A DNA stretch of 64,000 nt, from the NCBI GenBank assembly GCA_903813345.2, contig CAIIXF020000001.1:24729915-24793914 (forward strand), written 5' to 3'. The notes below the pieces were generated by a model that saw only the letters and a program-made list of their open reading frames with translations, was not told the origin of the DNA and ran no database searches. Shown here piece after piece: positions 1,697-64,000 of this stretch. The position numbers were made by a program, and so were the translations under genes. Each line of letters begins with the position of its first letter. Positions within the stretch are counted from its first letter, which is position 1. This stretch comes from Owenia fusiformis (Eukaryota; Annelida; Polychaeta; Sabellida; Oweniidae).

Positions 1697-4600
1697 TGGC
1701 TGACACAACTAATGTGGCTGAAGCAACTACGGCCGATGCTACATCAGTTGATGTTACAACTACAGATGCTGACACAACTACAACTGATGCAACAACAACA
1801 GTTGCTGATGCGACAACGGCTGATGTTACAACAACAGTAGCTGACTCAACTACAGTGGCTGACACAACTACGGCAGATACTACAGCAACTGATGCTACAA
1901 CTGCAGTGGCCGACACAACTACAGCTGATGCTACAACAACAAGTGCTGATGCAAAAACGGCTGGTGTTACAACAACAGTAGCTGACACAACTACAGTGGC
2001 TGACGCATCTACGGCAGATACTACAGCAGCTGATGCTACAACTACAGTGGCAGAAACAACTACAACTGATGCTACAACGGCTGCTGTTACAACAACAGTA
2101 GCTGAGACAACTACAGCGGCTGACGTAACTACGGCAGATACTACAGCAGCTGATGCCACAACTATAGTGGCGGACACAACTACAGCTGATGCTACAACAA
2201 CAGTTGCTGATGCAAAAACGGCTGATGCTACAACAACAGTTGCTGACACAACTACAGTGGCTGACGCAACTACGGCAGATATTCGAGCAGCTGATGCTAC
2301 AACTACAGTGGCTGAGAAAACTTCAGCTGATACTCCAACAACGGTTGCTGATGCAACAACGGCTGATGTTGCAACAACAGTAGCTGACAAAACTACAGCG
2401 GCTTACGCAACTATGTCAGATACTACAACAACTGATGCTACAACTACAGTGGCTGACACAACTACAGCTGATGTTGCAACAACAGTAGCTGACAAAACTA
2501 CAGCGGCTTACGCAACTACGGCAGATACTACAGTAGCTGATGCTACAACTGCAGTGGCCGACACAACTACAGCTGATGCTACAACAACAGTTGCTGATGC
2601 AACAACGGCTGATGCTACAACAACAGTTGCTGACACAATTACAGTATTTGACGCAACTACGGCTGATACTACAGCAGCTGATGCTACAACTACAGTGGCT
2701 GACACAACTTTAGCTGATGCTACAACAACAAGTGCTGATGCAGCAACGGCTGGTGTTACAACAACACAAGCTGACACAACTACAGTGGTTGAAGCATCTA
2801 CGGCAGATACTGCAGCAGCTGATGCTACAACTACAGTGGCTGACACAACAACAGTTGCTGATGCTACTACAACAGTTGCTGATGCAACAACGGCTGATGT
2901 TACAACAACAGCAGCAGACACAACTAAAGTGGCTGACGCAACTACGGCATATACTACAGCAGCTGATGCTACAACTACATTGGCTGACACAACAACAGTT
3001 GCTGTTGCAACAACAGAGGCTCGTGTTACAACAACAGTTCCTGACACAACTACAGTGGCTGACACAACTACAGCTGATGCTACAACAACACTTGCTGATG
3101 CAAGAACGGCTGACGTTACAACAACAGTAGCTGAGACAACTACAGTGGCTGACGTAACTACGGCAGATACTACAGCAGCTGATGCTACAACTACAGTGGC
3201 TGACACAACTATAGCTGATGCTACAACAACAAGTGCTGATGCAACAACGGCTGGTGTTACAACAACACAAGCTGACACAACTACAGAGGTTGAAGCATCT
3301 ACGGCAGATACTACAGCAGCTGATGCTACAAGTACAGTGGCAGACACAACTACAACTGATGCTACAACCGCTGCTGTTATAACAACAGTAGCTAAGACAA
3401 CTACAGTGGCTGACGCAACTACGGCAGATACTACAGCAGCTGATGCCACAACTACAGTTGCTGCCACAACTACAGCTGATGCTTCAACAACAGTTGCTGA
3501 TGCAACAACGGCTGATGTTACAACAACAGTAGCTGACACAACTGCAGTGGCTGACACAGCTACAGCTGATGCTACAACTACAGTGGCTGACACAGCTACA
3601 GCTGATGCTAAAACAACAGTTGCTGACACAACTACAGTGGCAGACGCAACTACGGCAGATACTACAGCAGCTGATGCTACAACTACAGTGGCTGACACAG
3701 CTACAGCTGATGCTACAACAACAGTTGCTGATACAACAACGGCTGATGTAACAACAACATTAGCTGACACAACTGCAGTGGCTGACGCAACTACGGCAGA
3801 TTCTACAGCCTCTGATGCTACAACTACAGTGGCTGACACAACTACAGCTGATGCTACAACAACAGTTGCTGATGTTACAACGGCTGATGTTACAACTACA
3901 GTTGCTGACACAACTACATTGGCTGACGCAACTACGGCAGATACTACAGCAGTTGATGCTACAAGTACAGTGGCTGACACAATTACAGCTGATACTACAA
4001 CAACAGTTGCTGAGGCAACAACGGCTGATGTTACAACAACAGTAGCTGACACAACTACAGTGGCTGAAACAACTATGGCAGATACAACAGCAGCTGATGC
4101 TACAGGTACAGTGGCTGACACAAATACAGCTGATGCTACAGCAACAGTTGCTGATGCAACAACGGCCGATGTTACAATAACAGTTGCTGACACAACTACA
4201 GTGGCTGACGCAACTACGGCAGATACTACAGCAGCTGATGCTACAAGTACAGTGGCTGACACAACTATAGCTGATGATAAAACCACAGTTGCTGATGCAA
4301 CTGCGGCTGATGTTACAACAACAGTAGCTGACACAACTACAGTGGCTGACGCAACTACGGCAGATACTTCAGCAGCTGATGCTACAAGTACAGTGGCTGA
4401 CACAACTACAGCTGATGCTACAACAACAGTTGATGATGCAACAACGGCTGATTTTACAACAACAATAGCGGACACAACTACAGTGGCTGACGCAACTACG
4501 GCAGATACTACAGCAGCTGATGCTACAAGTACAGTGGCTAACACAACTAAAGCTGATGCTACAACAACAGTTGATGATGCAACAACGGCTGATGTTACAA

Positions 4601-7600
4601 CAACAATAGCTGACACAACCACAGTGGCTGACGCAACTACGGCAGATACTACAGCAGCTGATGCTACAAGTACAGTGGCTGACACAACTACAGCTGATGC
4701 TACAACAACAGTTGCTGACACAACTACAGTGGCTGACGCAACTACGGCAGATACTACAGCAGCTGATGCTACAAGTACAGTGACTGACACAACTAAAGCT
4801 GATGCTACAACAACAGTTGCTGATGCAACAACAGCTGATGTCACAACAACAGTGGCTGACACAACTACGGCAGATACTACAGCAGCTGGTGCTACAAGTA
4901 CAGTGGCCGACACAACTACAGCAGATGTTACAACAACAGTTGCTGATGCAACAACGGCTGATGTTACAACAACAGTTGTTGACACAACTATAGTGGCTGA
5001 TGCAACTACGGCAGATACTACAGCAGCTGATGCTACAAGTACAGTGGCTGACACAACTACACCTGATGCTACAACAACAGTTGCTGACACAACTACAGTG
5101 GCTGATGCAACTACGGCAGATACTACAGCAGCTGATGCTACAAGTACAGTGGCTGACACAACTACAGCTGGTGCTACAACAACAGTTGCAGATGCAACAA
5201 CGGCTGATGTTACAACAACAGTTGTTGACACAACTACAGTGGCTGATGCAACTACGGCAGATACTACAGCAACTGATGCTACAACTACAGTGGCTGACAC
5301 AACTACAGTTGCTGACGCAACTACGGCAGGTACTATAGTAGCTGATGCTACAACTACAGTGGCTGACACAACTACAGCTGATGCTACAACAACAGTTGCT
5401 GATGCAACAACGGCTGATGTTACAACAACAGTTGCTGACACAACTACAGTGGCTGACGCAACTACGGCAGATACTACAGCAGCTGATGCTACAACTACAG
5501 TGGCTGACACAACTACAGTGGCTGATGCAACTACGGCAGATACTACAGCAGCTGATGCTACAAGTACAGTGGCTGACACAACTACAGCTGGTGCTACAAC
5601 AACAGTTGCAGATGCAACAACGGCTGATGTTACAACAACAGTTGTTGACACAACTACAGTGGCTGATGCAACTACGGCAGATACTACAGCAACTGATGCT
5701 ACAACTACAGTGGCTGACACAACTACAGTTGCTGACGCAACTACGGCAGGTACTATAGTAGCTGATGCTACAACTACAGTGGCTGACACAACTACAGCTG
5801 ATGCTACAACAACAGTTGCTGATGCAACAACGGCTGATGTTACAACAACAGTTGCTGACACAACTACAGTGGCTGACGCAACTACGGCAGATACTACAGC
5901 AGCTGATGCTACAACTACAGTGGCTGACACAACTACAGCTGATGCTACAACAACAGTTGCTGATGCAACAACGGCTGATGTTACAACAACAAGAGCTGAC
6001 ACAACTACAGTGGCGGACGCAACTACGGCAGATACTACAGCAGCTGATGCTACAACAACAGTTGCTGATGCAACAACGGCTGATGTTACAACAACAGTTG
6101 ATGATGCAACTACAGTGGCTGATGCAACTACGGCAGGTACTACAGCAGCTGATGCTACAACTACAGTGGCTGACACAACTACAGCTGATGCTACAACAAC
6201 AGTTGCTGATGCAACAACGGCTGATGTTACAACAACAGTAGCTGACACAACTACAGTGGCTGACGCAACTACGGCAGATACTACAGCAGCTGATGCTACA
6301 AGTACAGTGGCTGACACAACTACAGCCGATGCTACAACAACAGTTGCTGATGCAACAACGGCTGATGTTACAACAACAGTAGCTGACACAACTACAGTGG
6401 CTGACGCAACTACGGCATATACTACAGTAGCTGTTGCTACAGCTACAGTGGCTGACACAACTACAGCTGATGCTACAACAATAGTTGATGATGCAACAAC
6501 GGCTGATGTTACAACAACAGTAGCTGACACAACTACAGTGGCTGACGCAACTACGGCAGATACTACAGCAGCTGATGCTACAACAACAGTAGCTGACACA
6601 ACTACAGTGGCTGACGCAACTACGGCAGATACTACAGTTGCTGATGCAACAACGGCCGATGTTACAACAACATTTGCTGACACAACAACAGTGGCTGACG
6701 CAACTACGGCAGATACTACAGCAGCTGATGCTACATCTACAGTGGCTGACACAACTACAGCTGATGGTACAACAACAGTTGCTGATGCAACAACGGCTGA
6801 TGTTACAACAACAGTTGCTGACACAACTACAGTGGCTGACGCAACTACGGCAGATACTACAGCAGCTGATGCTACAACCACAGTGGCTGACACAACTACA
6901 GCTGATGCTACAACAACAGTTGCTGATGCAACAACGGCTGATGTTACAACAACAGTAGCTGACACAACTACAGTGGCTGACGCATCTACGGCAGATACTA
7001 CAGCAGCTGATGCTACAACTACAGTGGCTGACACAACTACAGCTGATGCTACAACAACAGTTGCTGATGCAACAACGGCTGATGTTACAACAACAGTTGC
7101 TGACACAACTACAGTTTCTGACGCAACTACGGTAGATACTACAGCAGCTGATGCCACAACTACAGTGGCTGGCACAACTACAGCTGATGCTACAACAACA
7201 GTTGCTGATGCAACAACGGCTGATGTTACAACAACAGTAGCTGACACAACTACAGTGGCTGACGCAACTACGGCAGATACTACAGCAGCTGATGCTACAA
7301 GTACAGTGGCTGACACAAGTACAGCTGATGCTACAACAACAGTTGATGATGCAACAACTGCTGATGTTACAACAACAATAGCTGACACAACTACAGTGGC
7401 TGACACAACTACGGCAGATTCTACAGCAGCTGATGCTACAAGTACAGTGGCTGACACAACTACAGCTGATGCTACAACAACAGTTGCTGACACAACTACA
7501 GTGGCTGACGCAACTACGGCAGATACTACAGCAGCTGATGCTACAACAACAGTGGCTGACGCAACTACGGCAGATACTACAGCATCCGATGCTACAAGTA

Positions 7601-10600
7601 CATTGGCTGACGCAACTACAGCTGATGCTACAACAACAGTTGCTGACACAACTACAGTGGCTGACGCAACTACGGCAGATACTACAGCAGCTGATGCTAC
7701 AAGTACAGTGGCTGAGACAACTAAAGCTGATGCTACAGCAACAGTTGCTGATGCAACAACGGCTAATGTCACAACAACATTGGCTGACACAACTACGGCA
7801 GATACTACAGCAGCTGGTGCTACAAGTACAGTGGCCAACACAACTACAGCAGATGTTACAACAACAGTTGCTGATGCAACAACGGCTGATGTTACAACAA
7901 CAGTTGTTGACACAACTATAGTGGCTGATGCGACTACGGCAGATACTACAGCAGCTGATGCTACAAGTACAGTGGCTGACACAACTACAGCTGATGCTAC
8001 AACAACATTTGCTGATGCAACAACGGCCGATGTTACAATAACAGTTGCTGACACAACTACAGTGGCTGACGCAACTACGGCAGATACTACAGCACCTGAT
8101 GCTACAACTACAGTGGCTGACACAGCTACAGCTGATGCTACAACAACAGTTGCTGATACAACAACGGCTGATGTAACAACAACATTAGCTGACACAACTA
8201 CAGTGGCTGACGCAACTACGGCAGATTCTACAGCCTCTGATGCTACAACAACAGTTGCTGATACAACAACGGCTGATGTAACAACAACATTAGCTGACAC
8301 AACTGCAGTGGCTGATGCAACTACGGCAGATACTACAGTAGCTGATGCTACAAGTACAGTGGCTGACACAAATGCAGCTGATGCTACAACAACAGTTGAT
8401 GATGCAACAACGGCTGATGTTACAACAACAATAGCTGACACAACTACAGTGACTGACGCAACTACGGCAGATACTACAGCAGCTGATGCTACAAGTACAG
8501 TGGCTGACACAACTACAGCTGATGCTACAACAACAGTTGCTGACACAACTACAGTGGCTGACGCAACTACGGCAGATACTACAGCAGCTGATGCTACAAG
8601 TACAGTGGCTGACACAACTAAAGCTGATGCTACAACAACAGTTGCTGATGCAACAACGGCTGATGTCACAACAACAGTGGCTGACACAACTACGGCAGAT
8701 ACTACAGCAGCTGGTGCTACAAGTACAGTGGCCGACACAACTACAGCAGATGTTACAACAACAGTTGCTGATGCAACAACGGCTGATGTTACAACAACAG
8801 TTGTTGACACAACTATAGTGGCTGATTCAACTACGGCAGATACTACAGCAGCTGATGCTACAAGTACAGTGGCTGACACAACTACACCTGATGCTACAAC
8901 AACAGTTGCTGACACAACTACAGTGGCTGATGCGACTACGGCAGATACTACAGCAGCTGATGCTACAACTACAGTGGCTGACACAACTACAGTTGCTGAC
9001 GCAACTACGGCAGATACTATAGTAGCTGATGCTACAACAACAGTGGCTGACACAACTACAGCTGATGCTACAACAACAGTTGCTGATGCAACAACGGCTG
9101 ATGTTACAACAACAGTTGCTGACACAACTACAGTGGCTGACGCAACTACGGCAGATACTACAGCAGCTGATGCTACAACTACAGTGGCTGACACAACTAC
9201 AGCTGATGCTACAACAACAGTTGCTGATGCAACAACGGCTGATGTTACAACAACAAGAGCTGACACAACTACAGTGGCTGACGCAACTACGGCAGATACT
9301 ACAGCAGCTGATGCTACAACAACAGTTGCTGATGCAACAACGGCTGATGTTACAACAACAGTTGCTGATGCAACTACAGTGGCTGATGCAACTACGGCAG
9401 ATACTACAGCAGCTGATGCTACAACTACAGTGGCTGACACAACTACAGCTTATGCTACAACAACAGTTGCTGATGCAACAACGGCCGATGTTACAATAAC
9501 AGTTGCTGACACAACTACAATGGCTGACGCAACTACGGCAGATACTACAGCAGCTGATGCTACAACTACAGTGGCTGACACAACTACAGCTGATGTTGCA
9601 ACAACAGTAGCTGACAAAACTACAGCGGCTTACGCAACTACGGCAGATACTACAGTTGCTGATGCAACAACGGCCGATGTTACAACAACATTTGCTGACA
9701 CAACAACAGAGGCTGACGCAACTACGGCAGATACTACAGCAGCTGATGCTACATCTACAGTGGCTGACACAACTACAGCTGATGGTACAACAACAGTTGC
9801 TGATGCAACAACGGCTGATGTTACAACAACAGTTGCTGACACAACTACAGTGGCTGACGCAACTACGGCAGATACTACAGCAGCTGATGCTACAACCACA
9901 GTGGCTGACACAACTACAGCTGATGCTACAACAACAGTTGCTGATGCAACAACGGCTGATGTTACAACAACAGTAGCTGACACAACTACAGTGGCTGACG
10001 CATCTACGGCAGATACTACAGCAGCTGATGCTACAACTACAGTGGCTGACACAACTACAGCTGATGCTACAACAACAGTTGATGATGCAACAACGGCTGA
10101 TGTTACAACAACAGTAGCTGACACAACTACAGTGGCTGACGCAACTACGGCAGATACTACAGCAGCTGATGCTACAAGTACAGTGGCTGACACAACTACA
10201 GCTGATGCTACAACAACAGTTGCTGACACAACTACAGTGGCTGACCCAATTACGGCAGATACTACAGCAGTTGATGCTACAAGTACAGTGGCTGACACAA
10301 CTACAGCTGATGCTACAACAACAGTTGCTGATGCAACAACGGCTGATGTTACAACAACAGTTGCTGACACAGCTACAGTTGCTGACGCAACTACGGCAGA
10401 TACTACAGCAGCTAATGCTACAAGTACAGTGGCTAAAACAACTACAGCTGATGCTACAACAACAGTTGCTGATGCAACAACGGCTGATGTTACAACAACA
10501 GTAGCTGACACAACTACAGTGGCTGACGCAACTACGGCAGATACTACAGCAGCTGATGCTACAACCACAACGGCTGATAGAACTACAGCTGATGCTACAA

Positions 10601-13600
10601 CAACAGTTGCTGATGCAACAACGGCTGATGTTACAACAACAGTTGCTGACACAACTACAGTTTCTGACGCAACTACGGTAGATACTACAGCAGCTGATGC
10701 CACAACTACAGTGGCTGATACAACTACAGCTGATGCTACAACAACAGTTGCTGATGCAACAACGGCCGATGTTGCAATAACAGTTGCTGACACAACTACA
10801 GTTTCTGACGCAACTACGGTAGATACTACAGCAGCTGATGCTACAACTACAGTTGCTGACACAACTACAGTTGCTGACGCAACTACGGCAGATACTTCAG
10901 CAGCTGATGCTACAAGTACAGTGGCTGACACAACTACAGCTGATGCTACAACAACAGTTGATGATGCAACAACGGCTGATGTTACAACAACAATAGCTGA
11001 CACAACTACAGTGGCTGACTCAACTACGGCAGATACTACAGCAGCTGATGCTACAAGTACAGTGGCTGACACAACTACAGCTGATGCTACAACAACAGTT
11101 GATGATGCAACAACGGCTGATGTTACAACAACAATAGCTGACACAACTACAGTGGCTGACGCAACTACGGCAGATACTACAGCAGCTGATGCTACAAGTA
11201 CAGTGGCTGACACAACTACAGCTGATGCTACAACAACAGTTGCTGACACAACTACAGTGGCTGACGCAACTACGGCAGATACTACAGCAGCTGATGCTAC
11301 AAGTACAGTGGCTGACACAACTAAAGCTGATGCTACAACAACAGTTGCTGATGCAACAACGGCTGATGTCGCAACAACAGTGGCTGACACAACTACGGCA
11401 GATACTACAGCAGCTGGTGCTACAAGTACAGTGGCCGACACAACTACAGCAGATGTTACAACAACAGTTGCTGATGCAACAACGGCCGATGTTACAACAA
11501 CAGTTGTTGACACAACTATAGTGGCTGATGCAACTACGGCAGATACTACAGCAGCTGATGCTACAAGTACAGTGGCTGACACAACTACACCTGATGCTAC
11601 AACAACAGTTGCTGACACAACTACAGTGGCTGATGCAACTACGGCAGATACTACAGCAGCTGATGCTACAAGTACAGTGGCTGACACAACTACAGCTGAT
11701 GCTACAACAACAGTTGCAGATGCAACAACGGCTGATGTTACAACAACAGTTGTTGACACAACTACAGTGGCTGATGCAACTACGGCAGATACTACAGCAG
11801 CTGATGCTACAACTACAGTGGCTGACACAACTACAGCTGATGCTACAACAACAGTTGCTGATGCAACAACGGCCGATGTTACAATAACAGTTGCTGACAC
11901 AACTACAGTGGCTGATGCAACTACGGCAGATACTACAGCACCTGATGCTACAACTACAGTGGCTGACACAGCTACAGCTGATGCTACAACAACAGTTGCT
12001 GATACAACAACGGCTGGTGTAACAACAACATTAGCTGACACAACTGCAGTGGCTGACGCAATTACGGCAGATTCTACAGCCTCTGATGCTACAACTACAG
12101 TTGCTGACACAACTACAGCTGATGCTACAACAACAGTTGCTGATGTTACAACGGCTGATGTTACAACAACAGTTGCTGACACAACTACATTGGCTGACGC
12201 AACTAAGGCAGATACTACAGCAGTTGATGCTACAAGTATAGTGGCTGACACAATTACAGCTGATACTACAACAACAGTTGCTGAGGCAACAACGGCTGAT
12301 GTTACAACAACAGTAGCTGCCACAACTACAGTGGCTGACGCAACTACGGCAGATACTTCAGCAGCTGATGCTACAAGTACAGTGGCTGACACAACTACAG
12401 CTGATGCTACAACAACAGTTGATGATGCAACAACGGCTGATGTTACAACAACAATAGCTGACACAATTACAGTGGCTGACGCAACTACGGCAGATACTAC
12501 AGCAGCTGATGCTACAAGTACAGTGGCTGACACAACTTCAGCTGATGCTACAACAACAGTTGCTGATGCAACAACGGCTGATATTACAACAACAGTAGCT
12601 GACACAACTACAGTGGCTGACGCAACTACGGCAGATACTACAGCAGCTGATGCTACAAGTACAGTGGCTGACACAACTACAGCTGATGCTACAACAACAG
12701 TTGCTGACACAACTACAGTGGCTGACGCAACTACGGCAGATACTACAGCAGCTGATGCTACAAGTACAGTGGCTGACACAACTAAAGCTGATGCTACAAC
12801 AACAGTTGCTGATGCAACCACGGCTGATGTCACAACAACAGTGGATGACACAACTACGGCAGATACTACAGCAGCTGGTGCTACAAGTACAGTGGCCGAC
12901 ACAACTACAGCAGATGTTACAACAACAGTTGCTGATGCAACAACGGCTGATGTTACAACAACAGTTGTTGACACAACTATAGTGGCTGATGCAACTACGG
13001 CAGATACTACAGCAGCTAATGCTACAAGTACAGTGGCTGACACAACTACAGCTGATGCTACAACAACAGTTGCTGACACAACTACTGTGGCTGATGCAAC
13101 TACGGCAGATACTACAGCAGCAGATGCTACAAGTGCAGTGGCTGACACAACTACAGCTGATGCTACAACAACAGTTGCAGATGCAACAACGGCTGATGTT
13201 ACAACAACAGTTGTTGACACAACTACAGTGGCTGAAGCAACTACGGCAGATACTACAGCAGCTGATGCTACAACTACAGTGGCTGACACAACTACAGTTG
13301 CTGACGCAACTACGGCAGATACTATAGTAGCTGATGCTACAACTACAGTGGCTGACACAACTACAGCTGATGCTACAACAACAGTTGCTGATGCAACAAC
13401 GGCTGATGTTACAACAACAGTAGCTGACACAACTACAGTGGCTGACGCATCTACGGCAGATACTACAGCAGCTGATGCTACAACTACAGTGGCAGACACA
13501 ACTACAGCTGATGCTACAACAACAGTTGATGATGCAACAACGGCTGATGTTACAACAACAGTAGCTGACACAACTACAGTGGCTGACGCAACTACGGCAG

Positions 13601-39800: not shown

Positions 39801-40217
39801 AACTTTAAAAATATATATAACTCTTAAATAGGACTTTAATTCATGATCAATGTTTTATCAAAATGTATACTAGGTAGGATTCGCACTCTAATTCGCTAAT
39901 AAAATATCAACCCTAAGGTGGGGTTTCGTTAAAAAGAAAATATGTCGTGTCCAGAATCAAATAATTTGTCCAAAACCTTTAACGATCCTGTTTATTGATT
40001 CACTGGCTTTGCGTTCACTACGTTGTGAAAAATATCACAATCTTAAACTCTCTATTGCTTGCGAAATACGGTGGTAACCAAGATACAATGGCGTCAATAT
40101 TCTTTTATAGGTACAAGTCAAACCGAACATTACGAAATTTTAGAATTAGATAAACGTATCTATTGTTTTCTATAACAATTCTACAGATGTATGAGTGACA
40201 TAAATGATATGTTACAG

Positions 40218-49300: not shown

Positions 49301-52300
49301 ACAACAGTTGCTGATGCAACAACGGCTGATGTTACAACAACAGTAGCTGACACAACTACAGTGGCTGACGCAACTTCGGCAGATACAACAGCAGCTAATG
49401 CTACAACTACAGTGGCTGACAAAACTACAGCTTATGCTTTAACAACAGTTGCTGATGCAACAACGGCTGATGTTACAACAACAGTTGCTGACACAACTAC
49501 AGTGGCTGACGCAACTACGGCAGATACTACAGCAGCTGATGCTACATCTACAGTGGCTGACACAACTGCAGCTGATGCTACAACAACAGTTGCTGACACA
49601 ACTACAGTGGCTGACACAACTACGGCAGATACTACAGCAGCTGATGCTACAAGTACAGTGGCTGACACAACTACAGCTGATGCTACAACAACAGTTGCTG
49701 ATGCAACAACGGCTGATGTTACAACAACAGTAGCTGACACAACTACAGAGGCTGAAGCAACTACGGCAGATACTACAGCAGCTGATGCTACAAGTACAGT
49801 GGCTGACACAACTACAGCTGATGCTACAACAACAGTTGCTGATGCAACAGCGGCTGATGTTACAACAACGGTAGCTGACACAACTACAGTGGCTGACGCA
49901 ACTACGGCAGATACTACAGCAGCTGATGCTACAACTACAGTGACTGACACAACTACAGCTGATGCTACAACAACAGTTGCTGATGCAACAACGGCTGATG
50001 TTACAACAACAGTTGGTGACACATCTACAGTGGCTGACGCAACTACGGCAGATACTACAGCAGCTGATGGTACAAGTACAGTGGCTGACACAACTACAGC
50101 TGATGCTACAGCAACAGTTGCTGCTGCAACAACGGCTGATGTTACAACAACTGTTGCTGACACAACTACAGTGGCTGACTCAAGTAAGGCAGATACTACA
50201 GCAGCTGATGCTACAAGTACAGTGGCTGACACAACTGCAGCTGATGCTACAACAACAGTTGCTGACACAACTACAGTGGCTGACACAACTACGGCAGATA
50301 CTACAGCAGCTGATGCTACAAGTACATTGGCTGACACAACAACAGCTGATGCTACAATTACAGTTGCTGATGCAACAACGGCTGATGTTACAACAACAGT
50401 TGCTGACACAACTACATTTTCTGACGCAACTACGGCAGATACTACAGCAGCTGATGCTACAAGTACAGTTGCTGACACACCTACAGTGGCTGACGCAACT
50501 ACGGCAGATACTACAGCAGCTGATGCTACAACTACAGTGGCTGACAAAACTGCAGCTGATGCTACAACAACAGTTGCTGATGCAACAACGGCTGATGTTA
50601 CAAAAACAGTTGCTGACACAACTACAGTGGCTGACGCAACTACGGCAGATACTACAGCAGCTGATGCTACAAGTACAGTGGCTGACACAACTACAGCTGA
50701 TACTACTACAACAGTTGCTGATGCAACAACGGCTGATGTTACAACAACAGTAGCTGACACAGCTACAGTGGCTGATGCGACTACGGCAGATACTACAGCA
50801 GCTGATGCTACAACTACAGTGGCTGACACAACTACAGCTGATGCTACAACAACAGTTGCTGATGCAACAACGGCTGATGTTACAAGAACAGTTGCTGACA
50901 CAACTCCAGTGGCTGACGCAACTACGGCAGATACTACAGCAGCTAATGCTACAAGTACAGTGGCTGACAAAACTACCGCTGATGCTACAGCAACAGTTGC
51001 TGATGCAACAACGGCTGATGTTACAACAACAGTAGCAGACACAACTACAGTGGCCGACGCAACTACAGCAGATACTGCAGAAGCTGATGCTACAACTACA
51101 GTGGCTGACACACCTACAGCTGATGCTACAACAACAGTTGCTGATGCAACAACGGCTGATGTTACAACAACAGTTGCTGACACAACTACAGTGGCTGACG
51201 CAACTACGGCAGATACTACAGCAGCTGATGCTACAAGTACAGTGGCTGACACAACTACAGCTGATGCTACAGCAACAGTTACTGATGCAACAACGGCTGA
51301 TGTTACAACAACAGTTGCTGACACAACTACAGTGGCTTACGCAACTACAGCAGATACTACAGCAGCTCATGCTACAAGTACAGTGGCTGACACAACTACA
51401 GCTGATGCTACAGCAACAGTTGCTGATGCAACAACGGCTGATGCTACAACAACAGTTGCTGATGCAACAACGGCTGATGTTACAACAACAGTAGCTGACA
51501 AAACTACAGTGGCTGACGCAACTACGGCAGATACTACAGCAGCTAATAATACAACTACAGTGGCTGACACAACTGCAGCTGGTGCTACAACAACAGTTGC
51601 TGATGCAACAACGGCTGATGTTACAACAACAGTAGCTGACACAACTACAGTGGCTGACGCAACTTCGGCAAATACAACAGCAGCTGATGCTACAACTACA
51701 GTGGCTGACACAACTGCAGCTTATGCTACAACAACAGTTGCTGATGCAACAACGGCTGATGTTACAACAACAGTTGCTGACACAACTACAGAGGCTGACG
51801 CAACTACGGCAGATACTACAGCAGCTGATGCTACAACTACAGTGGCTGACACAACTGTAGCTGATGTTACAACAACAGTTGCTGACACAACTACAGTGGC
51901 TGACGCAACTACGGCAGATACTACAGCAGCTGATGCTACAAGTACAGTGGCTGACACAACTACAGCTGATGCTACAACAACAGTTGCTGATGCAACAACG
52001 ACTGATCTAACAACAACAGTTGCTGACACAACTACAGTGGCTGATGCAACTTCGGCAGATACAACAGCAGCTGATGCTACAACTACAGTGGCTGACACAA
52101 CTACAGCTGATGCTACAACAACAGTTGCTGATGCAACAACGGCTGATCTAACAACAACAGTTGCTGACACAACTACAGTGGCTGATGCAACTACGGCAGA
52201 TACTACAGCAGCTGATGCTACAACTACAGTGGCTGACACAACTACAGCTGATGCTACAACAACAGTTGCTGATGCAACAACGGCTGATGTTACAACAACA

Positions 52301-55300
52301 GTAGCTGACACAACTACAGTGGCTGATGCGACTACGGCAGATACTACAGCAGCTGATGCTACAACTACAGTGGCTGACACAACTACAGCTGATGCTACAA
52401 CAACAGTTGCTGATGCAACAACGGCTGATGCTACAACAACAGTTGCTGACACAGCTACAGTGGCTGACGCAACTACGGCAGATACTACAGCAGCTGATGC
52501 TACAAGTACAGTGGCTGACACAACTACCGCTGATGCTACAGCAACAGTTGCTGATGCAACAACGGCTGATGTTACAACAACAGTAGCAGACACAACTACA
52601 GTGGCTGACGCAACTACGGCAGATACTACAGCAGCTGATGCTACAACTACAGTGGCTGACACACCTACAGCTGATGCTACAACATCAGTTGCTGATGCAA
52701 CAACGGCTGATGTTACAACAACAGTTGCTGACACAACAACAGTGGCTGACGCAACTACAGCAGATACTACAGCAGCTGATGCTACAAGTACAGTGGCTGA
52801 CACAACTACAGCTGATGCTACAGCAACAGTTACTGATACAACAACGGCTGATGTTACAACAACAGTTGCTGACACAACTACAGTGGCTGACGCAACTACG
52901 GCAGATACTACAGCAGCTGATGCTACAAGTACAGTGGCTGACACAACTACCGCTGATGCTACAACAACAGTTGCTGATGCAACAACGGCTGATGTTACAA
53001 CAACAGTTGCTGACACAACTACAGTGGTTGACGCAACTACGGCAGATACTACAGCAGCTGATGCTACAACTACAGTGGCTGACACAACTGCAGCTGATGC
53101 TACAACAACAGTTGCTGATGCAACAACGGCTGATGTTACAACAACAGTAGCTGACACAACTACAGTGACTGACGCAACTACGGCAGATACTACAGCAGCT
53201 GATGCTACAACTACATTGGCTGACACAACTGCAGCTGATGCTACAACAACAGTTGCTGATGCAACAACGGCAGATACTACAGCAGCTGATGCTACAACAA
53301 CAGTTGCTGATGCAACAGCGGCTGATGTTACAACAACAGTTGCTGACAGAACAACGGTGGCTGACGCAACTACGGCAGATACTACAGCAGCTGATGCTAC
53401 AAGTACAGTGGTTGACACAACTACAGCTGATGCTACAGCAACAGTTACTGATGCAACAACGGCTGATGTTACAACAACAGTTGCTGACACAACTACAGTG
53501 GCTGACGCAACTACGGCAGATACTACAGCAGCTGATGCTACAAGTACAGTGGCTGACACAACTACAGCTGATGCTACAGCAACAGTTGCTGCTGATGCTA
53601 CAACTACAGTGGTTGACACAACTGCAGCTGATGCTACAGCAACAGTTGCTGACACAACTGCAGCTGATGCTACAACAACAGTTGCTGATGGAACAACGGC
53701 TGATGTTACAACAACAGTTGCTGACACAACTACAGTGGCTGACGCAACTACTGCAGATACTACAGCAGCTGATGCTACAAGTACAGTGGCTGACACAACT
53801 GCAGCTGATGCTACAACAACAGTTGCTGATGCAACAACGGCTGATGTTACAACAACAGTGGCTGACACAACTACAGTGGCTGACGCAACTACGGCAGATA
53901 CTACAGCAGCTGATGCCACAAGTACAGTGGCTGACACAACTACAGCTGATGCTACAGCAACAGTTACTGATGCAACAACGGCTGATGTTACAATAACAGT
54001 TGCTGACACAACTACAGTGGCTGACGCAACTTCGGCAGATACAACAGTAGCTGATGCTACAACTACAGTGGCTGACACAACTACAGCTGATGTTACAACA
54101 ACAGTTGCTGATGCAACAACGGCTGATGCTACAACAACAGTTGCTGATGCAACAACGGCTGATGTTACAACAACAGTAACTGACACAACTACAGTGGCTG
54201 ACGCAACTACGGCAGATACTACAGCAGCTGATGCTACAACTACAGTGGCTGACACAACTGCAGCTGATGCTACAACAACAGTTGCTGATGCAACAACGGC
54301 TGATGTTACAACAACAGTAGCTGACACAACTACAGTGGCTGACGCAACTTCGGCAGATACAACAGCAGCTGATGCTACAAGTACAGTGGCTGACACAACT
54401 ACAGCTGATGCTACAGCAACAGTTGCTGCTGATGCTACAACAACAGTGGCTGACACAACTACAGTGGCTGACGCAACTACGGCAGATACTACAGCAGCTG
54501 ATGCTACAATTACAGTGGCTGACACAACTACAGCTAATGCTACAACAACAGTTGCTGATGCAACAACGGCTGATGTTACAACAACATTTGCTGAGACAAC
54601 TACAGTGGCTGACGCAACTACGGCAGATACTACAGCAGCTGATGCTACAATTACAGTGGTTGACACAACTACAGCTGATGCTACAACAACAGTTGCTGAT
54701 GCAACAACGGCTGATGTTACAACAACAGTTGCTGACACAACTACAGTGGCTGACGCAACTACGGCAGATACTACAGCAGCTGATGCTACAAGAACTGTGG
54801 CTGACACAACTACAGCTGATGCTACAGCAACAGTTGCTGATGCAACAACGGCTGATGCTACAACAACAGTTGCTGATGCAACAATGGCTGATGTTACAAC
54901 AACAGAAGCTGACACAACTACAGTGGCTGTCGCAACTACGGCAGATACTACAGCAGCTGATGCTACAACTACAGTGGCTGACACAACTGCAGCTGATGCT
55001 ACAACAACAGTTGCTGATGCAACAACGGCTGATGTTACAACAACAGTAGCTGATACAACTACAGTGGCTGACGCAACTTCGGCAGATACAACAGCAGCTG
55101 ATGCTACAACTACAGTGGCTGACACAACTACAGCTGATTCTACAACAACAGTTGCTGATGCAACAACGGCTGATGTTACAACAACAGTAGCTGACACAAC
55201 TACAGTTGCAGACGCAACTACGGCAGATACTACAGCAGCTGATGCTACAACTACAGTGGCTGACACAACTGCAGCTGATGCTACAACAACAGTTGCTGAT

Positions 55301-58300
55301 GCAACAACGGCTGATGTTACAACAACAGTAGCTGACACAACTACAGTTGCAGACGCAACTACGGCAGATACTACAGCAGCTGATGCTACAAGTACAGTGG
55401 CTGACACAACTGCAGCTGATGCTACAACTACAGTGGCTGACACAACTGCAGCTGATGCTACAACAACAGTTGCTGATGCAACAACGCCTGATGTTACAAC
55501 AACAGTTTCTGACACAACTACAGTGGCTGATGCAACTACGGCAGATACTACAGCAGCTGATGCTACAACTACAGTGGCTGACACAACTACAGCTGATGCT
55601 ACAACAACAGTTGCTGATGCAACAACGGCTGATGTTACAACAACACTAGCTGACACAACTACAGTGGCTGACGCAACTACGGCAGATACTACAGCAGCTG
55701 ATAATACAACTACAGTGGCTGACACAACTACAGCTGATGCTACAACAACAGTTGCTGATGCAACAACGGCTGATGATACAACAACAGTAGCTGACACAAC
55801 TTCAGTGGCTGACGCAACTACGGCAGATACTACAGCAGCTGATGCTACAACTACAGTGGCTGACACAACTACAGCTGATGCTACAACAACAGTTGCTGAT
55901 GCAACAACGGCTGATGTTACAACAACAGTTGCTGACACAACTACAGAGGTTGACGCAACTACGGCAGATACTATAGCAGCTGATGCTACAACTACAGTGG
56001 CTGACACAACTGCAGCTGATGCTACAACAACAGTTGCTGATGCAACAACGGCTGACACTACAACTACAGTGGTTGACACAACTGCAGCTGATGCTACAAC
56101 AACAGTTGCTGATGGAACAACGGCTGATGTTACAACAACAGTTGCTGACACAACTACAGTGGCTGACGCAACTACTGCAGATACTACAGCAGCTGATGCT
56201 ACAAGTACAGTGGCTGACACAACTGCAGCTGATGCTACAACAACAGTTGCTGATGCAACAACGGCTGATGTTACAACAACAGTGGCTGACACAACTACAG
56301 TGGCTGACGCAACTACGGCAGATAGGTCAGCAGCTGATAATACAACTACAGTGGCTGACACAACTACAGCTGATGCTACAACAACAGTTGCTGATGCAAC
56401 AACGGCTGATGTTACAACAACAGTAGCAGACACAACTACAGTGGCTGAAGCAACTACGGCAGATACTACAGCAGCTGATGCTACAACTACAGTGGCTGAC
56501 ACACCTACAGCTGATGCTACAACAACAGTTGCTGATGCAACAACGGCTGATGTTACAACAACAGTTGCTGACACAACAACAGTGGCTGACGCAACTACGG
56601 CAGATACTACAGCAGCTGATGCTACAAGTACAGTGGCTGACACAACTACAGCTGATGCTACAGCAACAGTTACTGATGCAACAACGGCTGATGTTACAAC
56701 AACAGTTGCTGACACAACTACAGAGGTTGACTCAACTACGGCAGATACTACAGCAGCTGATGCTACAACTACAGTGGCTGACACAACTGCAGCTGATGCT
56801 ACAACAACAGTTGCTGATGCAACAACGGCTGATGTTACAACAACAGTAGCTGACATAACTACAGTGGCTGATGCAACTACGGCAGATACTACAGCAGCTG
56901 ATGCTACAACTACAGTGGCTGACACAACTGCAGCTGATGCTACAAGTACAGTGGCTGACACAACTGCAGCTGATGCTACAACAACAGTTGCTGATGCAAC
57001 AACGGCTGATGTTACAACAACAGTGGCTGACACAACTACAGTGGCTGACGCAACTACGGCAGATAGGTCAGCAGCTGATAATACAACTACAGTGGCTGAC
57101 ACAACTACAGCTGATGCTACAACAACAGTTGTTGATGCAACAACGGCTGATGTTACAACAACAGTAGCAGACACAACTACAGTGGCTGAAGCAACTACGG
57201 CAGATACTACAGCAGCTGATGCTACAACTACAGTGGCTGACACACCTACAGCTGATGCTTCAACAACAGTTGCTGATGCAACAACGGCTGATGTTACAAC
57301 AACAGTTGCTGACACAACAACAGTGGCTGACGCAACTACGGCAGATACTACAGCAGCTGATGCTACAAGTACAGTGGCTGACACAACTACAGCTGATGCT
57401 ACAGCAACAGTTACTGATGCAACAACGGCTGATGTTACAACAACAGTTGCTGACACAACTACAGTGGCTGACGCAACTACGGCAGATACTACAGCAGCTG
57501 ATGCTACAAGTACAGTTGCTGACACAACTACAGCTGATGCTACAACAACAGTTGCTGATGCAACAACGGCTGATGTTACAACAACAGTAGCTGATACAAC
57601 TACAGTCACTAACACAAATACGGCAGTTACTACAGCAGCTGATGCTACAACTACAGTGGATGACACAACTACAGCTGATGCTAGAACAACAGTTGCTGAT
57701 GCAACAACGGCTGATGTTACAACAACAGTAGCTGACACAACTACAGTGGCTGACGCAACTACGGCAGATACTACAGCAGCTGATGCTACAACTACAGTGG
57801 TTGACACAACTGCAGCTGATGCTACAACAACAGTTGCTGATGCAACAACGGCTGATGTTGCAAAAACAGTAGATGACATAACTACAGTGGCTGACGCAAC
57901 TACGGCAGATACTACAGCAGCTGTTGCTACAACTACAGCAGCTGATGCTACAACTAAAGTGGCTGACACAACTGTAGCTGATGCTACAACAACAGTTGCT
58001 GATGCAACAACGGCTGGTGTTACAACAACAGTTGCTGACACAACTACAGTGGCTGACGCAACTACGGCAGATACTACAGCAGCTGATGCTACAACTACAG
58101 TGGCTGACACAACTACAGCTGATGCTACAACAACAGTTGCTGATGCAACAACGGCTGATGTTACAACAACAGTAGCTGACACAACTACAGTGGCTGATGC
58201 GACTACGGCAGATACTACAGAAGCTGATGCTACAACTACAGTGGCTGACACAACTACAGTGGCTGACGCAACTACGGCAGATACTACAGCAGCTGATGCT

Positions 58301-61300
58301 ACAAGTACAGTGGCTGACACAACTACAGCTGATGCTACAACAACAGTTGCTGATGCAACAACGGCTGATGTTACAACAACAGTAGCTGACACAACTACAG
58401 TGGCTGATGCAACTTCGGCAGATACAACAGCAGCTGATGCTACAACTACAGTGGCTGACACAACTACAGCTGATGCTACAACAACAGTTGCTGATGCAAC
58501 AACGGCTGATGTTACAACAACACTTGCTGACACAACTACAGTGGCTGATGCAACTACGGCAGATACTACAGCAGCTGATGCTACAACTACAGTGGCTGAC
58601 ACAACTACAGCTGATGCTACAACAACAGTTGCTGATGCAACAACGGCTGATGTTACAACAACAGTAGCTGACACAACTACAGTGGCTGATGCAACTTCGG
58701 CAGATACAACAGCAGCTGATGCTACAACTACAGTGGCTGACACAACTACAGCTGATGCTACAACAACAGTTGCTGATGCAACAACGGCTGATGTTACAAC
58801 AACACTTGCTGACACAACTACAGTGGCTGATGCAACTACGGCAGATACTACAGCAGCTGATGCTACAACTACAGTGGCTGACACAACTACAGCTGATGCT
58901 ACAACAACAGTTGCTGATGCAACAACGGCTGATGTTACAACAACAGTAGCTGACACAACTACAGTGGCTGATGCGACTACGGCAGATACTACAGCAGCTG
59001 ATGCTACAACTACAGTGGCTGACACAACTACAGCTGATGCTACAACAACAGTTGCTGATGCAACAACGGCTGATGCTACAACAACAGTTGGTGACACAAC
59101 TACAGAGGCTGACGCAACTACGGCAGATACTACAGCAGCTGATGCTACAAGTACAGTGGCAGACACAACTACAGCTGATGCTACAGCAACAGTTGCTGGT
59201 GCAACAACGGCTGATGTTACAACAACAGTAGCTGACACAACTATAGTGGCTGACGCAACTACGGCAGATAATACAGCAGCTGATGCTACAACTACAGTGG
59301 CTGACACAACTGCAGCTGATGCTACAACAACAGTTGCTGATGCAACAACGGCTGATGTTACAACAACAGTTGCTGACACAACTACAGTGGCTGATGCGAC
59401 TACGGCAGATACTACAGAAGCTGATGCTACAACTACAGTGGCTGACACAACTACAGTGGCTGACGCAACTACGGCAGATACTACAGCAGCTGATGCTACA
59501 AGTACAGTGGCTGACACAACTACAGCTGATGCTACAACAACAGTTGCTGATGCAACAACGGCTGATGTTACAACAACAGTAGCTGACACAACTACAGTGG
59601 CTGATGCAACTTCGGCAGATACAACAGCAGCTGATGCTACAACTACAGTGGCTGACACAACTATAGCTGATGATACAACAACAGTTGGTGACACAACTAC
59701 AGAGGCTGACGCAACTACGGCAGATACTATAGCATCTGATGCTACAACTACAGTGTCTGACACAACTGCAGCTGATGCTACAACAACAGTTGCTGATGCA
59801 ACAACGGCTGACACTACAACTACAGTGGTTGACACAACTGCAGCTGATGCTACAACAACAGTTGCTGATGGAACAACGGCTGATGTTACAACAACAGTTG
59901 CTGACACAACTACAGTGGCTGACGCAACTACTGCAGATACTACAGCAGCTGATGCTACAAGTACAGTGGCTGACACAACTGCAGCTGATGCTACAACAAC
60001 AGTTGCTGATGCAACAACGGCTGATGTTACAACAACAGTGGCTGACACAACTACAGTGGCTGACGCAACTACGGCAGATAGGTCAGCAGCTGATAATACA
60101 ACTACAGTGGCTGACACAACTACAGCTGATGCTACAACAACAGTTGTTGATGCAACAACGGCTGATGTTACAACAATAGTAGCAGACACAACTACAGTGG
60201 CTGAAGCAACTACGGCAGATACTACAGCAGCTGATGCTACAACTACAGTGGCTGACACACCTACAGCTGATGCTACAACAACAGTTGCTGATGCAACAAC
60301 GGCTGATGTTACAACAACAGTTGCTGACACAACAACAGTGGCTGACACAACTACGGCAGATACTACAGCAGCTGATGCTACAAGTACAGTGGCTGACACA
60401 ACTACAGCTGATGCTACAGCAACAGTTACTGATGCAACAACGGCTGATGTTACAACAACAGTTGCTGACACAACTACAGTGGCTGACGCAACTACGGCAG
60501 ATACTACAGCAGCTGATGCTACAAGTACAGTTGCTGACACAACTACAGCTGATGCTACAACAACAGTTGCTGATGCAACAACGGCTGATGTTACAACAAC
60601 AGTAGCTGATACAACTACAGTCACTAACACAAATACGGCAGTTACTACAGCAGCTGATGCTACAACTACAGTGGATGACACAACTACAGCTGATGCTAGA
60701 ACAACAGTTGCTGATGCAACAACGGCTGATGTTACAACAACAGTAGCTGACACAACTACAGTGGCTGACGCAACTACGGCAGATACTACAGCAGCTGATG
60801 CTACAACTACAGTGGTTGACACAACTGCAGCTGATGCTACAACAACAGTTGCTGATGCAACAACGGCTGATGTTGCAAAAACAGTAGATGACATAACTAC
60901 AGTGGCTGACGCAACTACGGCAGATACTGCAGCAGCTGTTGCTACAACTACAGCAGCTGATGCTACAACTAAAGTGGCTGACACAACTGTAGCTGATGCT
61001 ACAACAACAGTTGCTGATGCAACAACGGCTGGTGTTACAACAACAGTTGCTGACACAACTACAGTGGCTGACGCAACTACGGCAGATACTACAGCAGCTG
61101 ATGCTACAACTACAGTGGCTGACACAACTACAGCTGATGCTACAACAACAGTTGCTGATGCAACAACGGCTGATGTTACAACAACAGTAGCTGACACAAC
61201 TACAGTGGCTGATGCGACTACGGCAGATACTACAGAAGCTGATGCTACAACTACAGTGGCTGACACAACTACAGTGGCTGACGCAACTACGGCAGATACT

Positions 61301-64000
61301 ACAGCAGCTGATGCTACAAGTACAGTGGCTGACACAACTACAGCTGATGCTACAACAACAGTTGCTGATGCAACAACGGCTGATGTTACAACAACAGTAG
61401 CTGACACAACTACAGTGGCTGATGCAACTTCGGCAGATACAACAGCAGCTGATGCTACAACTACAGTGGCTGACACAACTCCAGCTGATGCTACAACAAC
61501 AGTTGCTGATGCAACAACGGCTGATGTTACAACAACACTTGCTGACATAACTACAGTGGCTGATGCAACTACGGCAGATACTACAGCAGCTGATGCTACA
61601 ACTACAGTGGCTGACACAACTACAGCTGATGCTACAACAACAGTTGCTGATGCAACAACGGCTGATGTTACAACAACAGTAGCTGACACAACTACAGTGG
61701 CTGATGCAACTACGGCAGATACTACAGCAGCTGATGCTACAACTACAGTGGCTGACACAACTACAGCTGATGCTACAACAACAGTTGCTGATGCAACAAC
61801 GGCTGATGTTACAACAACAGTAGCTGACACAACTACAGTGGCTGATGCGACTACGGCAGATACTACAGCAGCTGATGCTACAACTACAGTGGCTGACACA
61901 ACTACAGCTGATGCTACAACAACAGTTGCTGATGCAACAACGGCTGATGCTACAACAACAGTTGGTGACACAACTACAGAGGCTGACGCAACTACGGCAG
62001 ATACTACAGCAGCTGATGCTACAAGTACAGTGGCAGACACAACTACAGCTGATGCTACAGCAACAGTTGCTGGTGCAACAACGGCTGATGTTACAACAAC
62101 AGTAGCTGACACAACTATAGTGGCTGACGCAACAACGGCAGATAATACAGCAGCTGATGCTACAACTACAGTGGCTGACACAACTGCAGCTGATGCTACA
62201 ACAACAGTTGCTGATGCAACAACGGCTGATGTTACAACAACAGTTGCTGACACAACTACAGTGGCTGACGCAACTACGGCAGATACTACAGCAGCTGATG
62301 CTACATCTACAGTGGCTGACACAACTGCAGCTGATGCTAAAACAACAGCAGCTGATGCTACAATTACAGTGGCTGACACAACTACAGCTGATGCTACAAC
62401 AACAGTTGCTGATGCAACAACGGTTGATGTTACAACAACAGTTGCTGACAGAACAACGGTGGCTGACGCAACTACGGCAGATACTACAGCAGCTGATGCT
62501 ACAAGTACAGTGGTTGACACAACTACAGCTGATGCTACAGCAACAGTTGCTGATGCAACAACGGCTGATGTTACAACAACAGTTGCTGACACAACTACAG
62601 TGGCTGACGCAACTACGGCAGATACTACAGCAGCTGATGCTACAAGTACAGTGGCTGACACAACTACAGCTGATGCTACAACAACAGTTGCTGATGCAAC
62701 AACGGCTGATGTTACAACAACAGTAGCTGACACAACTACAGTGGCTGATGCAACTTCGGCAGATACAACAGCAGCTGATGCTACAACTACAGTGGCTGAC
62801 ACAACTACAGCTGATGCTACAACAACAGTTGCTGATGCAACAACGGCTGATGTTACAACAACACTTGCTGACACAACTACAGTGGCTGATGCAACTACGG
62901 CAGATACTACAGCAGCTGATGCTACAACTACAGTGGCTGACACAACTACAGCTGATGCTACAACAACAGTTGCTGATGCAACAACGGCTGATGTTACAAC
63001 AACAGTAGCTGACACAACTACAGTGGCTGATGCGACTACGGCAGATACTACAGAAGCTGATGCTACAACTACAGTGGCTGACACAACTACAGCTGATGCT
63101 ACAACAACAGTTGCTGATGCAACAACGGCTGATGCTACAACAACAGTTGGTGACACAACTACAGAGGCTGACGCAACTACGGCAGATACTACAGCAGCTG
63201 ATGCTACAAGTACAGTGGCAGACACAACTACAGCTGATGCTACAGCAACAGTTGCTGGTGCAACAACGGCTGATGTTACAACAACACTTGCTGACACAAC
63301 TACAGTGGCTGATGCAACTACGGCAGATACTACAGCAGCTGATAATACAACTACAGTGGCTGACACAACTACAGCTGATGCTACAACAACAGTTGCTGAT
63401 GCAACAACGGCTGATGATACAACAACAGTAGCTGACACAACTTCAGTGGCTGACGCAACTACGGCAGATACTACAGCAGCTGATGCTACAAGTACAGTGG
63501 CAAACACAACTACAGCTGATGCTACAGCAACAGTTGCTGGTGCAACAACGGCTGATGTTACAACAACAGTAGCTGACACAACTATAGTGGCTGACGCAAC
63601 TACGGCAGATAATACAGCAGCTGATGCTACAACTACAGTGGCTGACACAACTGCAGCTGATGCTACAACAACAGTTGCTGATGCAACTACAGTGGCTGAC
63701 GCAACTACGGCAGATACTACAGCAGCTGATGCTACATCTACAGTGGCTGACACAACTGCAGCTGATGCTACAACAACAGTGGCTGACACAACTACAGTGG
63801 CTGACGCAACTACGGTAGATACTACAGCAGCTGATGCTACAACTACAGTGGCTGACACAACTGCAGCTGATGCTACAACAACAGTTGCTGATGCAACAAC
63901 GGCTGATGTTACAACAGTTGCTGAAACAACTACAGTGGCTGACGCAACTACGGCAGATACTACAGCAGCTGATGCTACAATTACAGTGGCTGACACAACT
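40218..64000 (+). CDS. Giant mucin-like protein, exon with EGF domain and array 2 (runs off window)
   Basis: Entered in phase 1 after GTTACAG, this exon encodes a calcium-binding EGF domain (40218-40360), then a linker with Thr and Asp (TTVVDPTRVDSSTTAD) and, from about 40440, a second Thr/Ala/Asp/Val array in the same frame. The frame of the first Cys codon and of the last codon (63998-64000) agree, and I found no in-frame stop in the stretches I translated. No complete ORF terminating in this frame exists anywhere between, so about 7,927 codons are open and the exon continues past the window. EGF exons are usually separate phase 1-1 cassettes; here the domain is continuous with the array in one exon. 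Units near the EGF (40.4-44.5 kb) are diverged, those after about 51 kb very homogeneous. Together with the exons at 1697 and 27891 this gives array-SEA-EGF-array in one polypeptide. Confidence 0.85.
46321..50640 (+). repeat. 3,084-bp-offset segmental duplication inside array 2
   Basis: About 46321-47560 and 49405-50640 align at a constant offset of 3,084 bp (1,028 codons), checked at 46385/49469, 47341/50425 and by shared rare motifs such as GACAAAACTACAGCTTATGC and ACTACATTTTCTGACG. Intervening units at 47.6-49.4 kb carry further copies of the Ala-Tyr-Ala-Leu marker. Frame is preserved. Confidence 0.85.
56935..62264 (+). repeat. About 2.4-kb near-identical duplication inside array 2
   Basis: 56935-58970 matches 59950-61985 at an offset of 3,015 bp, then the offset changes to 2,874 bp (one 141-bp unit lost) for about 58970-59389 against 61844-62263. 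Rare markers include CAGTCACTAACACAAATACG (57603 and 60618) and GATAGGTCAGCAGC (57062 and 60077). A third copy of the GATAGGTCAG marker at 56321 is displaced by 741 bp. Within the block, about 58400-58680 is followed by an almost identical 282-bp copy at 58682-58962 (two units). Confidence 0.88.

Follow-up and report, generated by a model that had tools for sequence, protein, structure and literature searches.

The window analysed here, a 64,000-nucleotide stretch of the Owenia fusiformis genome, is probably the middle part of a single animal gene encoding a type I membrane-tethered, SEA-type mucin-like glycoprotein of about 43,000 residues. The predicted gene model comprises 22 coding exons (129,105 nt); it starts with a candidate signal peptide, ends at a stop codon and encodes 43,034 residues, with no internal stops, consistent phases and one transmembrane helix. 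A preliminary description had proposed one gene of at least 16,690 residues; the single gene stands, while its predicted extent is much larger, with five giant exons in the model.

Exons and junctions in the window

The features of the window are as follows, with negative positions lying upstream of it.

1..1696, plus strand: 3' part of the intron between an EGF_CA exon (-1630..-1490; AG/GT borders, phase 1) and array exon D
1697..27765, plus strand: array exon D, 26,069 nt, phase 1 in and phase 0 out; Thr/Ala/Asp/Val array, then SEA N-terminal half
27619..27765, plus strand: N-terminal half of SEA domain number 4 of the gene (relatives at -34964, -23015, -5511 and 101570)
27766..27890, plus strand: 125-nt GT-AG intron within the SEA domain
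27891..28110, plus strand: 220-nt exon, SEA C-terminal half with the motif FSSGSILASF; phase 0 in and phase 1 out
28111..40217, plus strand: 12.1-kb intron
40218..64000, plus strand: array exon E, first 23,783 of 61,478 nt; EGF_CA, array, then a SEA N-terminal half outside the window
40218..40363, plus strand: EGF_CA domain (Pfam, Cys count and patterns)

The plus-strand frames described at 1697-27765 and 40218-64000 were confirmed to the single base. They lie within stop-to-stop frames of 1678..27780 (8,700 aa) and 40208..64000, the latter still open at the window end as had been reported, although the exon itself ends 37.7 kb further on, at 101695. The introns are GT-AG (donors GTAATG and GTAAAT; acceptors TTTTAG and GTTACAG), and the exon phases match as proposed, 0 at 27765/27891 and 1 at 28110/40218. 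No stop was found in the 16,690 codons of the joined frame, against 289 and 2,393 in the other two frames. The claim of giant coding exons belonging to one gene with in-phase junctions holds by computation. An open-frame listing of 1..1696 gave frames of at most 72 aa, those entering the array excepted. The window gave no hits in an Rfam scan at the gathering threshold or in a tRNA scan.

SEA and EGF_CA domains

The 220-nt exon had been called a SEA exon; SEA sequence is present, but it encodes the C-terminal half only. Rebuilt across 27765/27891, as had been suggested, the domain scores 31.6 bits (Pfam cut-off 26.4). Taken alone, the first half gives no score and the second reaches 21.1 bits, below the cut-off. 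The EGF_CA domain proposed at the second junction does span it (35.3 bits, cut-off 27): its first Asp is completed by the final base of the SEA exon. It has six Cys and fits the PROSITE patterns for calcium binding and Asx hydroxylation. All five EGF_CA domains of the gene pass the Pfam cut-off, as do all six SEA domains (31.6 to 40.5 bits), and in the model an intron lies at the matching place in every SEA domain.

On sequence, the Gly-Ser at which SEA domains of the MUC1 type cleave themselves is present in all six SEA domains, and G74-S75 is invariant in 7 of 7 aligned domains (six of the gene and one of a paralogue). Outside this alignment, the SEA domain of a downstream array gene has Arg-Ser in place of Gly-Ser. 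Among modules A-D (six pairs), SEA dN/dS was 0.18-0.33, from which the SEA parts are judged to be under purifying selection; SEA domains 5 and 6 were too diverged for dS and were left out. A search of solved structures with the SEA profile found TMPRSS11D (E 0.0008) and Mucin-1 (E 0.016). A weak match of the SEA exon to the transposase family PF13542, under its cut-off, was taken as chance.

Coding frame of the arrays

Array DNA could be a non-coding satellite with accidental open frames, a reading that is extremely improbable. Codons that a single step would turn into a stop are few in the repeat (151 of 8,634 in the first window array and 152 of 7,873 in the second), which makes an open frame by itself less telling than it looks. 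The minus strand also stays open, over as many as about 5,190 codons. These long antisense frames were rejected as genes and regarded as by-products of the repeat. However, frame-breaking offsets among the repeats are absent: none of the 299,572 shared 40-mer pairs within the two window exons (145,055 and 154,517) is out of frame, and the 26,504 ungapped repeat pairs that were used all keep the frame. Had the sequence undergone 10 % neutral change uniformly, an average of 17.8 stops would be expected in the first array and 15.8 in the second; none was observed. Across all five array exons (41,583 codons) the expectation rises to 90.1 stops for neutral change of 10 % and 33.6 for 5 %, again with none observed. 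Amino-acid constraint within the arrays is weak (pN/pS 0.74–0.85). The selection on the SEA parts and the complete gene structure surrounding the arrays also argue against a satellite, which was rejected on the frame evidence.

Gene model beyond the window

In the flanking contig, an EGF_CA domain, a Thr/Ala/Asp/Val array and a split SEA domain make up a repeating module. The giant array exons A-E measure 14.8, 8.4, 14.0, 26.1 and 61.5 kb; each of these exons ends in a first SEA half that is completed by a 220-nt exon, and EGF_CA precedes arrays B-E. Model junctions outside the window include -5037/-1630 and 101695/102119. Array E is followed, in order, by a Pro-containing Ser/Thr domain, EGF, the sixth SEA, EGF_CA, EGF, a transmembrane helix and a cytoplasmic tail. 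The same genome holds a related gene end (SEA-EGF_CA-TM at C1:55.21 Mb) and, downstream, the second array gene.

Both gene ends had been reported as missing, and candidates are now available for both. The C-terminus, which holds the only strong transmembrane helix of the model, is strong; the signal-peptide exon, near -64026, is weaker. It is the sole such exon on the plus strand within 50 kb, but the opposite strand of that stretch also gave one, as did 1 of 20 random sequences; none was found on either strand in 49 kb downstream. This exon is a candidate and the weakest part of the model. The splice borders are predicted from consensus and homology, and two model donors are poor (0.4 and 0.8) on a donor scoring matrix. 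With this matrix, GT sites scoring at least 4 number 0 of 327, 0 of 552, 0 of 1,012 and 2 of 2,376 in exons B-E, compared with 12 of 1,348 in two control introns. Exon A may be split, because 3 of its 562 GT sites reach this score and one of them, 7.8 at -48620, beats every model donor.

Array evolution and assembly integrity

The arrays have degenerate ends and homogenised interiors, most being homogenised within themselves; passages of a 2026 preprint describe this pattern in about half of human mucins (PMC13345508). Unequal exchange that kept the frame may have lengthened the arrays, and whole modules may have been added when phase 1-1 cassettes were duplicated.

The assembly may overstate the gene if arrays were collapsed or expanded, or if either module B or module C is a haplotype copy. 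This is unlikely, and it would be compatible with the tethered glycoprotein favoured here at a smaller size. The intron flanks of modules B and C are 97.8–98.9 % identical, so one of the two could be a haplotype artefact, and the longest exact repeat, of 1,185 bp, lies in a tandem block of 2,598 bp at 87-91 kb. Arrays B and C, however, align at only about 85 %, the array borders resemble true ends and 314 kb were counted without a single N. The two window arrays (D and the window part of E) share no exact match longer than 156 bp, against 733 within one array, and were rejected as haplotype copies of each other. Long reads could resolve the arrays because the longest exact repeat is so short.

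One chain or several transcripts

It is possible, though rather doubtful, that the locus yields several shorter transcripts through module skipping, internal promoters or poly-A sites and no 43,034-residue chain. Each EGF-array-SEA cassette is phase 1-1, so module skipping keeps the frame, and introns A-B and B-C contain weak leader-like ATGs with phase-1 donors. The window intron 28111..40217 has a single leader-like ATG, at 38359, which misfits the phase-1 acceptor because its donor is in phase 2. Against shorter products, no exon encoding a transmembrane helix plus stop-transfer was found in the four inter-module introns, 28111..40217 included, by a scan that recovers the real one as a positive control, and the chain, read in frame, has one membrane anchor, near its end.

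Composition and proposed function

Array exons A-E contain 41.2–43.6 % Ser+Thr and 0.30–0.61 % Pro. Asp recurs every five to seven residues, and D+E reach 17 % against about 1 % K+R. Passages of PMC9080433 define a PTS domain by more than 40 % Ser+Thr and about 5 % Pro. By this definition the arrays have the Ser+Thr content and fall short in proline; the earlier term 'mucin-like' is apt for the architecture. A 424-residue segment of exon F (53.8 % Ser+Thr, 8.7 % Pro) agrees with both parts. The model shows further traits of tethered mucins: its repeats lie in five exons between 8.4 and 61.5 kb long, and it has EGF domains, a single transmembrane helix and a tail. For SEA domains, passages of PMC1552070 base membership on phylogenetic grouping with mammalian mucin SEA.

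The low proline, the Asp spacing and the acidic excess would suit another reading, in which the SEA-EGF membrane anchor bears an acidic Thr/Asp matrix with, for instance, a calcium-binding or structural role, and the arrays do not count as mucin domains. This seems decidedly unlikely given array Ser+Thr above 40 % and, in the same protein, a standard PTS segment and the SEA-EGF-TM end of tethered mucins.

In the preferred mucin-like reading, the arrays would be densely O-glycosylated at Thr/Ser. With about 6,700 net acidic residues, they would form an extended polyanionic brush some 10 micrometres in length (at 0.25 nm per residue), which the membrane anchor would hold at the surface as a barrier. 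The SEA domains would self-cleave at Gly-Ser as in MUC1, with the halves staying joined non-covalently, so that the chain could part under load. Tentatively, at somewhat less than even confidence, this single protein of about 43,000 residues (4.1 MDa before glycosylation) may be a breakable chain with six self-cleaving SEA joints, its brush shed in defined pieces and its EGF_CA-array-SEA cassettes serving as the evolving unit. The Gly-Ser sites divide the model into segments of 4,970, 2,923, 4,797, 8,810, 20,566, 577 and 391 residues.

If transcripts confirm the model, the tethered-mucin plan would be extendable through duplicated EGF-array-SEA cassettes, and the gene would test both the limits of transcription, splicing, translation and secretion for one chain and whether repeated SEA domains serve as mechanical joints. 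Whether a mucin domain needs proline is likewise put to the test by a repeat that is poor in proline, periodic in aspartate and carried on a mucin anchor.

Comparison with known systems

In length-limited protein database searches, the SEA-EGF piece had no match at E 0.01 among 145 candidates, the array piece had two weak matches among 7,990 scored, and the C-terminal 500 residues had nine among 7,992 scored, those with telling names being EGF or Delta proteins. Misses here say little because full-length relatives would far exceed the search length limit. Titles and abstracts among the matches listed from the open-licence literature report no such gene.

Should transcripts confirm the model, the product would be among the largest proteins predicted for any animal and its chain longer than titin. 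Its length is comparable to that of titin (about 35,000-38,000 residues) and PKZILLA-1 (45,212 residues). These are a muscle spring and a polyketide synthase with other domains, and a sequence relation is not expected.

The paralogue at C1:55.21 Mb shares a Thr-rich acidic array, SEA with Gly-Ser, EGF_CA, a transmembrane helix and a tail. It differs in having array, SEA and tail in one open frame, a different repeat and one SEA in the 3.2 kb read.

The sizes of human MUC16 and titin, named earlier as yardsticks, were too low. Passages of PMC13345508 report still larger human MUC12 alleles, of up to 23,080 residues, with the largest human coding exon in some people. By arithmetic, an allele of 23,080 residues would take up no more than 69 kb, which places the 61.5-kb exon in the range of the longest MUC12 alleles.

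Human MUC3, MUC12, MUC13 and MUC17 resemble the model in their Thr/Ser tandem repeats, membrane-near EGF and SEA, one transmembrane helix and tail (passages of PMC9080433). Parts of PMC4456727 give MUC12, MUC13 and MUC17 a single SEA each, and parts of PMC13345508 describe mucins with a large repeat exon. Chicken Muc13 is known to depart from this plan, its repeats being spread over many small exons (passages of PMC1552070). The present gene differs from this group in its six SEA domains, five giant repeat exons and Pro-poor, Asp-rich repeats.

MUC16 is similar in being very long and tethered with several SEA domains, given as about 56 in passages of PMC4456727. That source proposes DSVLV as the MUC16 SEA site and did not see cleavage there in its study, and passages of PMC9080433 describe MUC16 without EGF. 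Unlike in MUC16, every giant array here ends in its own SEA domain, each with Gly-Ser.

Predicted gene architecture

The preliminary description of the window proposed two giant exons in matching phase, bridged by a 220-nt SEA exon, and at least 16,690 residues. All of this held: open-frame and splice-border checks returned the same coordinates, the phases of the three exons matched, and their joined translation ran for 16,690 residues without a stop. The junctions are further supported because, in a Pfam check, the SEA domain passed the cut-off (26.4 bits) only when joined (31.6 bits; halves nothing and 21.1), and EGF_CA scored 35.3 bits against a cut-off of 27.

In the assembly (498 Mb, 525 contigs) the window occupies C1:24729915-24793914, and flanks of 100 kb on either side of it were examined. 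Array exon E lies in an open frame that starts inside the window and runs out of it (40208..101764; 20,519 codons including the stop), and upstream of the window lie three further array exons, A, B and C, each closing with the same SEA half as array exon D. A 220-nt exon completes the SEA domain after each array. Each of B, C and D has an EGF_CA exon ahead of it; for E the EGF_CA domain lies inside the array exon itself, and none was found before A in the upstream flank. Phases recur as 1-1 (EGF), 1-0 (array) and 0-1 (SEA half). The resulting 22-exon model of a type I membrane-tethered, mucin-like protein comprises 129,105 nt and 43,034 residues (4.136 MDa bare), with GT...AG at 21 of 21 introns, borders having been selected for GT/AG.

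Exons of the gene model (window coordinates, negative values upstream)
-64026..-63966, +, candidate signal peptide
-49591..-34818, +, array A
-34710..-34491, +, SEA after A
-32465..-32325, +, EGF before B
-31276..-22869, +, array B
-22760..-22541, +, SEA after B
-20583..-20443, +, EGF before C
-19394..-5365, +, array C
-5256..-5037, +, SEA after C
-1630..-1490, +, EGF before D
1697..27765, +, array D
27891..28110, +, SEA after D
40218..101695, +, array E
102119..102338, +, SEA after E
102681..104063, +, exon F, Ser/Thr/Pro and EGF
104214..104341 and 104613..104832, +, sixth SEA, two halves
104982..105125, +, EGF_CA
105516..106087, +, EGF, TM and tail
106452..106535, 106970..107080 and 107281..107400, +, tail, the last with stop

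A 19-residue hydropathy scan detected a single strong TM helix, at about residue 42,790, and two weaker windows inside SEA number 5, at about residue 42,055. No TM plus stop-transfer exon was found in the inter-module introns by a scan that recovers the true one at the gene end. The signal peptide lies below the hydropathy cut (best 10 residues average 3.1). At the thresholds applied, its exon is the sole plus-strand candidate within 50 kb; the opposite strand of that stretch also yielded one, as did 1 of 20 random sequences, whereas neither strand of the 49 kb searched downstream yielded any. Introns A-B and B-C each contain one leader-like ATG with a weak phase-1 donor; another, in intron D-E, is in phase 2.

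Scored with a donor matrix, two model donors were low, and exon A may be spliced further, since a donor-like site at -48620 (7.8) outscores every model donor. GT sites scoring at least 4 numbered 3 of 562 in A, 0 of 327 in B, 0 of 552 in C, 0 of 1,012 in D and 2 of 2,376 in E, compared with 12 of 1,348 in two control introns; this scarcity is in line with B-E staying unspliced internally.

In the 12.1-kb intron, two pairs of 144-145-nt tandem repeats lie about 600 nt apart (37571-38463). Other intron segments recur between 131 and 139 kb at 76-91 % identity (first eight matches), and mobile elements are therefore likely.

Coding potential and composition

Openness of repeat frames may mislead, with codons one step from a stop making up 151 of 8,634 and 152 of 7,873 in the two window arrays. 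Three tests speak for coding. Shared 40-mers within the two window giant exons included no out-of-frame pairs (0 of 299,572). If 10 % of the sequence had changed uniformly and neutrally, 17.8 and 15.8 stops would be expected on average in the window arrays, and 90.1 (33.6 at 5 %) over the 41,583 codons of all five; none was observed. The SEA parts of modules A-D gave dN/dS of 0.18-0.33 (six pairs). Inside the arrays pN/pS was 0.74-0.85, a weak amino-acid constraint; what seems to be preserved is thus the frame and the composition, not the exact sequence. Minus-strand open frames at 2508-9449, 9630-17192 and 51721-67299 (2,313 to about 5,190 codons) are by-products of the repeat that could mislead gene finders.

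The arrays have a repeat period of 141 nt (47 residues), also seen at two and three times that length (282 and 423); their sub-repeats span five to seven residues and mostly end in Ala-Asp. Ser+Thr make up 42.4 % (18,249) of the predicted protein, which has 7,074 acidic (Asp+Glu) and 360 basic (Lys+Arg) residues and 206 Pro. Under the mucin definition as quoted in PMC9080433, the arrays qualify by Ser/Thr and not by proline, and a 424-residue part of exon F qualifies by both.

Array evolution and relatives

No N occurs in 314 kb of the region, and exact repeats in the five arrays reach 1,185 bp at most. Array ends are degenerate and interiors homogenised, including at the true 3' end of E, a pattern that an excerpt of PMC13345508 reports in roughly half of human mucins. 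When units were sampled and compared, those of C, D, E and of X1 and X2 (arrays of a second gene downstream) best matched their own array; A did so only barely, and B and X3 did not. Intron flanks of modules B and C are 97.8-98.9 % identical. A recent real duplication fits better than a haplotype copy, because the arrays themselves align at only about 85 %.

This second gene, on the same strand at 157191-247000 (L012, L023-L031), outside the window, has the same arrays in three giant frames (5,554, 4,604 and 7,983 codons), after which come EGF and SEA domains and, near 246 kb, a TM helix. The two genes form a predicted tandem pair of giant tethered mucins. A genome-wide SEA search returned 14 pieces, 11 from the present gene, one at C1:55.21 Mb and two at C2:30.69 Mb, a lower bound because the neighbouring gene's SEA was missed. 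The C1 locus (L001, C1:55211868-55215089) is a paralogous tethered mucin with a different Thr-rich repeat, its array end, SEA, EGF_CA, TM and tail all within one open frame. The C2 relative (C2:30693440-30694365) scored 49 and 38 bits in its two pieces.

Comparison with known mucins

Beyond the architecture, anchor, frame and domain conservation demonstrated here, the protein would, by analogy with known tethered mucins, form an O-glycosylated extended brush at the cell surface. SEA self-cleavage at Gly-Ser, as in MUC1, may also occur. Gly-Ser is invariant in seven of seven aligned SEA domains, and Arg-Ser takes its place in the SEA of the downstream gene; for MUC16, one study found no cleavage at the SEA sites proposed, according to an excerpt of PMC4456727.

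Giant mucin exons are already known from human MUC12, whose alleles reach 23,080 residues and include the largest human coding exon in some people (excerpt of PMC13345508). Chicken Muc13 also spreads its repeats over several exons, but these are small (excerpt of PMC1552070), whereas the predicted gene has five giant ones. As far as literature searches show, the following are new: the total length, the five giant exons in one predicted chain, a SEA domain at the end of every array, and a repeat that is poor in proline and periodic in aspartate.
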